DNA from: a virus
Length of the DNA: 45,355 nucleotides
Virus record (IMG/VR): IMGVR_UViG_3300036859_000299
Span: 1 to 45,355 of that record
Direction: 5' to 3' (one strand)
The translations under genes and the position numbers were made by a program. Shown one piece after another: positions 1-45,355 of this stretch. The notes under the pieces are model-generated. The model made no database searches, was not told the DNA's origin, and saw nothing but the letters and a program-made list of their open reading frames with translations. Each line of letters starts with the position of its first letter. Positions within the stretch are counted from its first letter, which is position 1.

Positions 1-25
1 GTACCGCGACGAAGGAGACGCGAAG

Positions 26-313
26 ATGACAAAAGCGCAAGCGGTAAAGATGTATCACTCGGCTTGGTGGCAGCAGGCTACGGACCAAGAAATCGTAGCC
101 TTCCAGCTCTTCGAGGAAAAGCTGTGCATGCCATTTGGCCGTTTTCATGAGGCGGTGGAGAAGTGTTTGGAGCGCCCGGTATTCACGCACGAATTTGGGC
201 TGGCGCACGAGCAACTCAAGGCGGAATTTCTCAAGCAGCGGCCAAAGGCCACGTTCGCTGAAATCATGGCGCTGATTCCCAAAGACAAGCAAATCATCAT
301 CACGGTGAAATGA
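26..313 (+). CDS. conserved small phage protein, function unknown
   Basis: A 95-residue soluble protein. The ATG is preceded by a purine-rich GAAGGAG Shine-Dalgarno sequence. A central block with FQLFEEKLCMPF and then RPVFTHEFG resembles a small family I associate with phage early regions, but I cannot name it with certainty and no function is known to me. It stops one base before the next gene, so the two are probably translationally coupled. It lies in the 538-base left segment that is replaced by different sequence at the other end of the contig, so it may be present only in some genome variants. Confidence 0.75.
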   Translation: MTKAQAVKMYHSAWWQQATDQEIVAFQLFEEKLCMPFGRFHEAVEKCLERPVFTHEFGLAHEQLKAEFLKQRPKATFAEIMALIPKDKQIIITVK

Positions 314-314
314 C

Positions 315-740
315 ATGGGAGAGTGGAAAAAAGCGCGCAGCGTTAAGTTTGGCGGTCGTCGCGAAGAACAAATCTTCGACATTGCTGACCGCTTTGCGCC
401 GTTCTTCAAAAATCCGCTGACGGACGTTGCTTGCTTTGCTGTGGATTGGCTGTGGGTCTGCATTCAGAAGGGAATGCTAGAGAACATCATTGGGGCAATT
501 CAAGAACTACGCTGTACTTCTGTGTCGGACGCGGCGGTGCGCGCGGAGGAGCGGTCGGTCAAGCCGTCGCAAAGGGAGCGGCCTACGGTGCTGAGCGTTG
601 GACGCGGGCCGCTTCACTTCCTCGCTAATCGCCCAGGTCGGGCCAGGGCGGGGGAGGCGGAGGCGGTGGGTATGGCACAGTTCATCACCCCCTTTCGTTC
701 GCTTCATCTTCTCCCTGTGTACGGCGGAGTGCAAGGATGA
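315..740 (+). CDS. ribbon-helix-helix-like protein, variant 1, with invariant C-terminal part
   Basis: A 141-residue protein. The N-terminal ~80 residues start MGEWKKARSVKF and look like a ribbon-helix-helix DNA-binding fold: a short strand, then two amphipathic helices. The last 42 codons before position 665 (539-665) are identical at DNA level to the gene at 45005. That gene has the same number of codons (117) from start to the junction but a strongly diverged N-terminal half, aligning without gaps. The C-terminal tail is Arg/Gly-rich and of unknown role. The stop overlaps the next start by 4 nt (ATGA). The RHH assignment is from pattern only. Confidence 0.65.
   Translation: MGEWKKARSVKFGGRREEQIFDIADRFAPFFKNPLTDVACFAVDWLWVCIQKGMLENIIGAIQELRCTSVSDAAVRAEERSVKPSQRERPTVLSVGRGPLHFLANRPGRARAGEAEAVGMAQFITPFRSLHLLPVYGGVQG
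539..665 (+). repeat. 127-bp exact direct repeat of the contig's right end
   Basis: Identical base for base to 45229-45355. The first mismatch to the left is T at 538 against C at 45228; beyond it the sequences differ widely while keeping reading frame. A 127-base exact overlap equals a k-mer length commonly used as the largest k by de Bruijn assemblers, which suggests an assembly-graph junction rather than a biological terminal repeat. Confidence 0.9.
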
Positions 741-1465
741 AATTGGCTTACATAGCGACGGGAGCCACGGCGTGCGTGCTGCTGTTTCTGGGCGGCGCGA
801 TGGCGAAACTTCCCGCCAAGGCTTTGCCGCTGTCCGCGTGGATATTCTTCGGTGTCCAGTTCATCGGGTGCGGCGCGGCGTTCATCGGCTTGCAGAAGTT
901 CGCGATCAGCAGCGGCGCGTATGACGCCTTCTATCGCGTGTCCTTACTGGCGACGATTTTCTCCGCGTGCGTTGTGGCGGGGTATCTGCACCGCGAAACG
1001 CCGTCGCCGCTCGTAGGATTCCTTGCCATCGGCGCGCTGATTTTCTCTCTGGCGCTGGCGTCGCTCACTTACTCACGGCTACTGGAAGTGTACGGCGGCG
1101 CAGTTCCAGGTAGGACTTTGCTTTTGCTCTTTCAGTTTGCCGGACTTGCGTTTTGCGCGGCGCTGGCCGCGGGCGCGTGGACGCAGCCGCAAACGGAAAC
1201 CGACCGCATCCTCACTCTTGGCCTTGGCGCGTACTGGTTTGCGATGGCGGCATGGACGCTGGCCTACACGGTTGAATCCGTGCGCGGACGCGAGCAATGG
1301 GACTTGTGGCAGCGTCGGGCTGGCGTGTGGCCCGCGCTGATTGCTCTGGTCTGCTTCGCGTGGATTACCTACAGGTTTGTGAGCATTCAGGCGGAATTGA
1401 GCCGCGCGCCGTCGCGCGAGATGGAGCAAGAGGTAGCGGCGGCGTTGCAGGAAGTGGAGGAGTGA
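737..1465 (+). CDS. multi-pass membrane protein
   Basis: A 242-residue protein with about seven hydrophobic segments, roughly residues 4-24, 33-53, 66-83, 91-111, 127-147, 158-178 and 196-212. A charged C-terminal tail is rich in Glu (MEQEVAAALQEVEE). It starts at an ATG that overlaps the previous stop (ATGA) and ends exactly at the base before the next ATG, so it sits inside a coupled operon. It is predicted to be in the host inner membrane. I do not recognise the family; early expression suggests a host-interaction or superinfection role, but that is inference only. Confidence 0.75.
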   Translation: MKLAYIATGATACVLLFLGGAMAKLPAKALPLSAWIFFGVQFIGCGAAFIGLQKFAISSGAYDAFYRVSLLATIFSACVVAGYLHRETPSPLVGFLAIGALIFSLALASLTYSRLLEVYGGAVPGRTLLLLFQFAGLAFCAALAAGAWTQPQTETDRILTLGLGAYWFAMAAWTLAYTVESVRGREQWDLWQRRAGVWPALIALVCFAWITYRFVSIQAELSRAPSREMEQEVAAALQEVEE

Positions 1466-43494: not shown

Positions 43495-43534
43495 GCGACA
43501 TGCGCCGCACTTGGCGCAAAGGGAGGGAAAGAAG

Positions 43535-43705
43535 ATGACGCCGATCAAGAAGGTCAACCGCTACGAATGCGAATGTACCAGGTGCGGCCATAAGTGGATT
43601 GCCAAGAGCGACGCGCCGCCGGTTCGATGCGCGAGTCCCGCATGCCGATCTCCGTACTGGAACCAGGAGAAAAAGGCGACCGGAGAAATCTCAAGTAAAA
43701 CTTGA
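43535..43705 (+). CDS. zinc-ribbon protein
   Basis: A 56-residue protein (MTPIKKVNRYECECTRCGHK...). CTRCGHKWIAK and CASPACRSPYWN are the two knuckles of a zinc ribbon (C-x2-C...C-x4-C) of the kind often found in phage accessory genes. A GGGAGGGAAAG site precedes the ATG. It ends within a hairpin followed by a T-rich stretch. Confidence 0.7.
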   Translation: MTPIKKVNRYECECTRCGHKWIAKSDAPPVRCASPACRSPYWNQEKKATGEISSKT

Positions 43706-43709
43706 GATT
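43687..43709 (+). terminator. possible intrinsic terminator
   Basis: A perfect 9-bp stem AATCTCAAG/CTTGAGATT with loop TAAAA, followed by ATTCTTTC. The stem is A/T-rich, so it is weak, but it lies exactly between the stop of the zinc-ribbon gene and the next promoter. It overlaps the stop codon. It may only partly stop transcription. Confidence 0.55.
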
Positions 43710-43726
43710 ATTCTTTCAGAAAGTGC

Positions 43727-43755
43727 TTGACACGGCGTTGGACTGTGTATACCTT
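43727..43755 (+). promoter_or_regulatory. promoter for the RHH gene
   Basis: TTGACA (43727-43732), then -10 as TACCTT (43750-43755, spacer 17) or TATACC (43748-43753, spacer 15). The transcript would start at or next to the ATG at 43762. There is no ribosome site in front of that ATG, so the mRNA appears leaderless. Confidence 0.65.
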
Positions 43756-43761
43756 GTGCCC

Positions 43762-43920
43762 ATGAACGGCACCGAAAGACCTGAGAAATTCATCACGGCG
43801 AGAGTACCGAAAGACATGCGCGAGTCGCTATTTATGATTGCCCGGACTAGAGGATTCACACTATCACAACTCATCCGGCGCATCCTTGAGCAATATCTCA
43901 AGCAGCGGAAAGCAGCCTAG
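43762..43920 (+). CDS. ribbon-helix-helix regulator
   Basis: A 52-residue protein. EKFITARVPKDMRESLFMIA forms the ribbon and helix A, RTRGFTLSQLIRRILEQYLK the turn and helix B: the classic RHH (Arc/MetJ/CopG) fold, used as a dimer to bind DNA dyads. Its own promoter and leaderless start suggest early, independent expression. It could act on the dyads at 40835-40976. It ends two bases before the next gene. Confidence 0.75.
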   Translation: MNGTERPEKFITARVPKDMRESLFMIARTRGFTLSQLIRRILEQYLKQRKAA

Positions 43921-43922
43921 AA

Positions 43923-44507
43923 ATGCAAGAATGCAATAAAGCCCGCGCCGATGCCTTGGGTCCGATAGTAGATACTCTCGCCACTCAACATAATCGAGAG
44001 AACGGTTTTGCCTTCATCTATGCCTTCCTAAATCCGAAAGACCTCCAGCCTTTTTACGTAGGCTCCGCAATTGACCCAGTGCGAAGGCTCTACAGCCACG
44101 TCATGCAGCCCACAACTAAGGCATCACGCCGCGTCGCGCAACAGATCGCGGAAACTGGCGAGTATCCAATCATCAAGATATTGGAGCGTGTTGACCACAC
44201 GATTCGTAACGAACGCGAGAAGCACTGGATTCGCCAGATGCTTGCGCAGGGAATCAAGTTGCTGAACGACAAGATTGCGGGACACGGCGAGCACCGCAAT
44301 CGCCACACGAAGGAAGAAGAAAAACTTCGGGTTGCTCTACATGCCTACAAATTGCAGCACGAGCTCACCTATTCCCAACTTAGTCTCGCCGTAGGACTGA
44401 CTAGCAACGCAGAGACGATGCATCGTTTTCTAGTCCGCCGCCGCTCGCTGCATCCCAAGACCTTCCGCAAAATCGAGGCTTTCCTGAATGGGGTGTCCCG
44501 TGGCTAA
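43923..44507 (+). CDS. GIY-YIG nuclease-like protein
   Basis: A 194-residue protein. FIYAFLNPKDLQPFYVGSAI (31-50) gives the GIY...YVG strands, with DPVRRLYSHV (Arg, His) and the helix containing NEREKHWIRQML (Glu) as further active-site parts. The C-terminal ~60 residues look like an HTH (YSQLSLAVGLTSNAETMHRF). Such genes can be homing endonucleases or host-DNA-cutting enzymes. A minus-strand gene overlaps its 3' end. Confidence 0.75.
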   Translation: MQECNKARADALGPIVDTLATQHNRENGFAFIYAFLNPKDLQPFYVGSAIDPVRRLYSHVMQPTTKASRRVAQQIAETGEYPIIKILERVDHTIRNEREKHWIRQMLAQGIKLLNDKIAGHGEHRNRHTKEEEKLRVALHAYKLQHELTYSQLSLAVGLTSNAETMHRFLVRRRSLHPKTFRKIEAFLNGVSRG

Positions 44508-44699
44508 GAGCCGCCGCGTCTGGAAAAGAATCTCCGCAACTTCCGCCTGTACGAGCGCGGCGGTCAACTCCTCGACAATTTCCTTGCGTTCTTTTTCGAG
44601 GATGGCGGCGCGTTCCAACCGGCGCATCCAGAAACTTCGCAATTCTGAATCAGTGCAGCCAAGCAAGTATTCAAGGTCGGGTATGGGGTTAGCGGCCAT
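44430..44699 (-). CDS. helical protein antisense to the GIY-YIG gene's end
   Basis: An 89-residue, acidic, helical protein (MAANPIPDLEYLLGCTDSEL...) with a normal residue composition, whereas the opposing plus frames are Ser/Arg noise. A GGAG ribosome site precedes the ATG. Its last 78 bases overlap the GIY-YIG gene. It is the only leftward gene in the early block. No family recognised. Confidence 0.65.
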   Translation of the reverse strand: MAANPIPDLEYLLGCTDSELRSFWMRRLERAAILEKERKEIVEELTAALVQAEVAEILFQTRRLLATGHPIQESLDFAEGLGMQRAAAD

Positions 44700-44825
44700 C
44701 GGTGGCTCCAGTGGGCGGGTGAGGCAATTCTTTTACAAAATGATTACTTGGAGCAAGACAAACGGAAAGCGAAGCGCCGCGTACTGAGAGTTCTGTAACG
44801 ATAGCGAGGCGAAAAAGGAGGAAAT

Positions 44826-45002
44826 ATGTTCTTGCCTGAAACTTACGCGCACAACGCGAGGCTTGAGGATGATACCTGCCCCTACGGAAACACCGTGAGA
44901 GACGCAAGCGGGCAAATCTTCCCATGCGGCGAAGCCGGGGAAGACGAGTACGGCAATCTGATTTTGTGTGGAGAATGCCGTCAAGCGTGGGGCGAAAACT
45001 AG
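44826..45002 (+). CDS. small Cys-containing zinc-ribbon-like protein
   Basis: A 58-residue protein: EDDTCPYGNTVRDASGQIFP, then CGEAGEDEYGNLILCGECRQ. The four Cys (18, 34, 48, 51) suit one zinc site. The best ribosome site of the region, AAAAAGGAGGA, stands before the ATG. It occupies the place that the gene at 26 holds in the other variant of the junction. The 125 bases upstream hold no gene. Confidence 0.7.
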   Translation: MFLPETYAHNARLEDDTCPYGNTVRDASGQIFPCGEAGEDEYGNLILCGECRQAWGEN

Positions 45003-45004
45003 AC

Positions 45005-45355
45005 GTGGGCGAGTGGCGCAAACCGTTGACGGTCAAGTTGAGCGACGCGGAGCGCGCGAAGCTGCTCGCCATCCATGAAGCTCTCGCGCCGATGCACGAG
45101 AATCTTTCGCAGACGATTCGCTGGTGCGTCGCGCAAATGCACTTTCTGATTTTCACGCGGGGAATGTTGGCAGAGTTGATCGCGGCGATTCAAGGCTTAC
45201 AGCGTAGTTTTCTGTCGGACGCGGCGGCGCGCGCGGAGGAGCGGTCGGTCAAGCCGTCGCAAAGGGAGCGGCCTACGGTGCTGAGCGTTGGACGCGGGCC
45301 GCTTCACTTCCTCGCTAATCGCCCAGGTCGGGCCAGGGCGGGGGAGGCGGAGGCG
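45005..45355 (+). CDS. ribbon-helix-helix-like protein, variant 2 (cut by contig end)
   Basis: 117 codons from GTG 45005 to the contig end. RKPLTVKLSDAERAKLLAIH and NLSQTIRWCVAQM give a good RHH pattern. From codon 76 the DNA is identical to 539-665. The shared frame implies that it would continue into 666-740 and end as the gene at 315 does. The N-terminal 70 codons differ strongly from that gene but align without gaps (GEW, VK, AP, GML, AIQ are shared). Confidence 0.75.
   Translation, partial: MGEWRKPLTVKLSDAERAKLLAIHEALAPMHENLSQTIRWCVAQMHFLIFTRGMLAELIAAIQGLQRSFLSDAAARAEERSVKPSQRERPTVLSVGRGPLHFLANRPGRARAGEAEA
45229..45355 (+). repeat. 127-bp exact direct repeat of 539-665
   Basis: The contig stops at the last base of the shared stretch. 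See 539-665. If the molecule is circular, the base after 45355 corresponds to 666. Confidence 0.9.

Follow-up and report, generated by a model that had tools for sequence, protein, structure and literature searches.

Two versions of a small gene at the ends of the record

The window is the entire IMG/VR record IMGVR_UViG_3300036859_000299, which is 45,355 nt long. It contains two versions of an RHH-like gene, called here allele A and allele B, one close to the start of the record and one which runs into its end. One relative, the contig L003 (record G001, 27,945 bp), was retrieved with the RecT protein as query, and it is the relative with which both alleles are compared. The genes and branches of the locus are the following.

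1 to 538, plus strand: branch A of the variable locus, with a leader, the DUF7736 gene and the first 74–75 codons of the RHH-like gene; it rejoins branch B exactly at 539
26 to 313, plus strand: upstream gene of branch A, DUF7736, 95 aa (Pfam PF24875, E=1.6e-13; 88% aa identity to L003:4834-5118)
315 to 740, plus strand: allele A of the RHH-like gene, ATG start, 141 aa, with a stop codon that overlaps the start of the following gene (ATGA at 737); a homologue of the same length lies at L003:5123-5545
737 to 1465, plus strand: downstream gene common to both branches, a putative membrane protein (68% aa identity to L003:6261-6980; codon statistics favour the frame)
44790 to 45228, plus strand: branch B, the version of the variable locus at the end of the record, delimited by alignment with L003 and with 1–538
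44826 to 45002, plus strand: Cys-rich upstream gene of branch B, encoding 58 aa, in place of DUF7736 (open reading frame and codon statistics; no family match)
45005 to 45355, plus strand: allele B of the RHH-like gene, which starts with GTG and runs out of the record after codon 117; its N-terminal half is 86% identical to L003

The open reading frame at 315 and the frame at 45005 align without any gap and have a common start, MGEW.K...VK, as the initial annotation of this DNA had described. The claim that the upstream neighbour is exchanged as well is also borne out, since the DUF7736 gene of branch A and the 58-aa Cys-rich frame of branch B are unrelated. The DNA identity between the two alleles is 46% in codons 5–35, 33% in codons 36–52, 62% in codons 53–66, 88% in codons 67–80 and 100% thereafter. 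The alleles thus differ strongly as far as codon ~66, with a gradual transition across codons 53–75, which does not agree with a sharp break at one codon. The 3' parts had been called DNA-identical; the identity is exact over 127 bp, but gene B is incomplete and only these 127 of about 200 bp are visible.

Other genes are found upstream of branch B. The region 43702–44507 encodes a true RHH protein (Pfam RHH_1, E=1.4e-4) and then a GIY-YIG nuclease (E=1.7e-6). Inspection by eye places the probable ATG of the RHH_1 gene at 43762, just 3' of a promoter-like sequence (TTGACA/TATACC). Neither gene has a counterpart in L003 in a tblastn comparison, and the two together thus resemble a mobile insertion. 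A short plus-strand frame at 44720–44787, MRQFFYKMITWSKTNGKRSAAY, was seen by eye just upstream of the variable locus and is conserved in L003 as MTPLYVRKISWRKTNGRRSAAY. It may be a small gene or the last part of a plus-strand frame at 44488–44787 which lies opposite a minus-strand open reading frame at 44430–44699.

The 127-bp junction and the probable closure of the record

The identity between the two ends of the window is confined to one pair of sequences, which is the sole repeat of at least 18 bp in the window.

539 to 665, plus strand: junction sequence, internal copy, 127 bp, exactly equal to the final 127 bases of the record, with no more identity upstream
45229 to 45355, plus strand: junction sequence, terminal copy, 127 bp, an exact match to 539–665 which stops where the record ends

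The metaSPAdes command of the JGI is run with -k 33,55,77,99,127, which gives a largest k of 127; this value is taken from the published command (PMC7311315). The breakpoints of metaSPAdes assemblies leave end overlaps of exactly maxK, and variation within a population has been simulated as one of their causes (PMC10914622). Here, exactly k bases are common to the contig end and another node, with a match of 127 and zero extra bases. An identity of exactly k which ends with the record is the mark of an assembly-graph junction. The "DNA-identical 3' part" of the record is therefore such a junction, and the extent of the identity past 45355 lies outside the record.

The RHH-like gene is present only once in L003, where it encodes 141 aa, the same length as allele A. 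The order at this locus in L003 is the homologue of the gene at 43511, that of the 44488–44784 region and that of DUF7736 (26–310), after which come the RHH-like gene, a C5-methylase-like insertion and lastly the counterpart of 737–1465. This order shows that the two ends of the window meet in a single locus. Position 1 of the window aligns to 44790 and to L003:4809, at which branch B departs from the common sequence. The C5-cytosine-methylase-like gene of L003 (L003:5545-6261, Pfam E=1e-6) is inserted precisely where the RHH-like gene would otherwise adjoin the 737–1465 homologue, and the overlapping stop/start persists where this gene meets the RHH-like gene.

It is therefore likely that each phage genome has one RHH-like gene, that the record closes on itself and that 1–538 is the allele of a second strain, the locus consisting of a variable cassette and an unconstrained tail. 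We infer a circular closure of the present genome at about 44.7 kb (~44,690 bp). Branches A (1–538) and B (44790–45228) would form a bubble in the assembly graph, that is, two strain versions which rejoin at 539, and the path that ends at 45355 would go on at 666. The alleles would then differ by a cassette made of the small upstream gene and the first 66–75 codons of the RHH-like gene. If the initial annotation meant two genes within one genome, these are most likely alleles which are joined at the 127-mer assembly junction. The start of the contig coincides with the homologous branch point, and the first 127 bases of the contig (1–127) do not occur a second time anywhere in the record. The left end is thus not a textbook k-mer overlap, and this holds for the bubble model too.

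A real duplication is an unlikely alternative to one locus with two alleles. It supposes two paralogous copies, either adjacent or located at the genome ends, whose N-terminal halves have diverged and whose 3' part has undergone gene conversion; the record would then break off with the first k-mer of the repeat. Indeed, both copies lie within one record, and a repeat longer than k would likewise end a contig with its first 127-mer (PMC10914622). However, the single copy of L003 stands in a locus that joins both window ends, and position 1 starts just where branch B diverges. A tandem arrangement also predicts that the record start repeats the last k-mer of the common part, which is contradicted by the lack of recurrence of the first 127 bases. 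It is similarly improbable that the record is a chimera, in which 1–538 comes from a different phage species of the sample with only a short stretch in common with this genome: DUF7736 is missing from branch B, but the same DUF7736 gene occurs at the same place in L003 with a dS of 0.22, no greater than that of the other common genes (0.30–1.09).

The N-terminal half and the C-terminal tail

The N-terminal halves of A and B have 19 identical residues out of 66 (29%) with no gap, a score that none of 20000 shuffles reached; BLASTP gives E=1e-10 as a single comparison. They are thus diverged homologues, as alleles would be, and not unlike classes. The initial annotation had called them very different domains, which is correct as regards the strong divergence up to about codon 66 but not as regards their kinship. 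The N-terminal half is under purifying selection: 10 amino acid changes separate allele B from L003, compared to 15.8 expected (P=0.0025), and the same holds for allele A against L003 (P=0.0095).

The assignment of both N-terminal halves to the RHH fold is not supported by database matches. No RHH family profile in Pfam, PHROGs or NCBIfam matches allele A, allele B or the L003 protein; over the whole record, PF01402 matches only at 43792–43905, in a different gene of this phage. A PDB sequence search returned nothing relevant to the RHH-like gene, and a profile comparison with the phage's own RHH protein gave no support for RHH. A structure search with a low-confidence model (VIA-align) gave no RHH row; one row had a Z of 2.3, which is meaningless. 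AlphaFold models based on the three-row alignment show helices at 14–30, 34–51 and 55–77 for L003 (B type), and at 14–31, 36–51 and 55–79 for A. Within the ~45 residues that a strand-helix-helix layout would occupy, the two helices have a low pLDDT of 45–69, and the strand is unformed in the monomer models. The helix layout of these low-confidence models fits RHH without proving it. The N-terminal ~66 residues would probably form a small helical domain, which may bind DNA, in a regulator of the early operon.

The C-terminal part behaves differently. The last 75 codons differ from L003 by 23 amino acid changes, compared to 24.0 for chance placement (P=0.42), so that no purifying selection is seen, and dN is not below dS. 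The pLDDT of this part is about 31–44 in the models, which predicts disorder. The neutral rate of change and the predicted disorder suggest that the C-terminal part is probably an unconstrained tail, rather than the fixed effector proposed at first. In both phages the frame is uninterrupted up to the ATG of the following gene (ATGA overlap), and it is thus presumably translated. A reading of this part in another frame was considered and rejected, since no alternative frame has better codon statistics throughout. The C-terminal ~75 residues would therefore be a translated, little-constrained tail which runs into the overlapping downstream gene.

The 3' DNA of the gene (600–740 compared to L003:5409-5545, ~125 bp from codon 101) is 92% identical between the two phages, and most of their common genes have a dS of 0.2–0.8. 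Eight of the ten differences in this stretch are at second codon positions. Recent recombination or exchange, or a constraint at the DNA level, may explain the conservation. An Rfam search over the window gave nothing, so the conserved DNA is not a known RNA.

An adaptive swap of specificity would be compatible with the allelic reading. The N-terminal halves would be alternative DNA-binding domains, which change operator recognition or allow escape from a regulator of the host or of a rival phage, while the C-terminal part keeps one function. It is true that the exchange involves both the N-terminal half and the upstream gene and leaves the 3' part in place, that a recombinant is present in L003, and that the helices 14–31 and 34–51 after a short VK segment are compatible with RHH. 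On the other side, RHH has no profile, PDB or profile-profile support, the C-terminal part is not under purifying selection, and the locus showed neither a promoter-like site nor a clear operator repeat; the only inverted repeats that might serve as operators are weak and lie within open reading frames. We consider this explanation doubtful. It is also doubtful that the locus is a specificity cassette in a wider sense, in which the group keeps several N-terminal DNA-binding alleles, exchangeable with or apart from the upstream gene, that are selected for different operators or host regulators. Thus, of the proposal that specificity is swapped and an effector kept, the exchange of the N-terminal half and the upstream gene next to retained downstream DNA stands, with its recombinant in L003, but a kept effector finds no support.

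Mosaic exchange and comparison with known systems

Protein and DNA scans of viral contigs for homologues of the RHH-like gene, with allele A, the three-row alignment, the N-terminal half of B and the DNA pattern of the common 3' part as queries, retrieved only the L003 record. Nine more distant records, fetched via the clamp-loader gene and searched whole, have neither the RHH-like gene nor DUF7736. Phage records (tblastn, blastn) and genome contigs gave no homologue.

L003 is an independent recombinant, which combines the DUF7736 of A (88% aa identity) with the N-terminal half of B (86% aa identity). Each piece can therefore be exchanged without the other, and the breakpoints lie close to the start codon and at about codons 66–75. 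An abrupt change of similarity within one gene, a homologous position and a recombinant in a relative are all found here, as expected for a pair of intragenic mosaic alleles. The swap is real mosaic variation, an ordinary phage mosaicism which the assembly junction would have made visible.

The phage encodes a RecT-type recombinase (Pfam E=1.5e-36). Relaxed homologous recombination by Rad52-like recombinases is proposed as a source of phage mosaicism (PMC3945230). The cassettes would arise by ordinary phage recombination between conserved flanks.

Strain variation and a k-mer junction can thus mimic a duplicated, domain-swapped gene in one record. The locus is also a small and clear case of cassette exchange, with both breakpoints at one gene. 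If the N-terminal halves bind DNA, A and B are a ready pair for asking whether operator specificity varies.

RHH regulators include Arc and Mnt of phage P22, CopG and the RelB/ParD antitoxins. In its low-confidence models, the RHH-like protein is similar to them in length and layout, with a short VK-type segment, two helices of about 17 residues and a disordered tail. It differs from them in that no sequence match to any RHH family is detectable, and by the extra helix 55–77, which lies outside the RHH fold.

The exact 127-bp identity that ends with the contig is like the maxK end overlaps of metaSPAdes described in the COBRA paper (PMC10914622). The difference is that the terminal k-mer matches the internal site 539–665 and not the opposite end, which would be because the record start is a variant branch.

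Finally, the locus resembles the intragenic phage mosaicism treated in PMC3945230, in that the similarity changes abruptly within a small gene, the flanks are conserved and a RecT is encoded. It differs in that two probable alleles of a population are found here in a single metagenomic record, and the recombination between them is deduced from their sequences.
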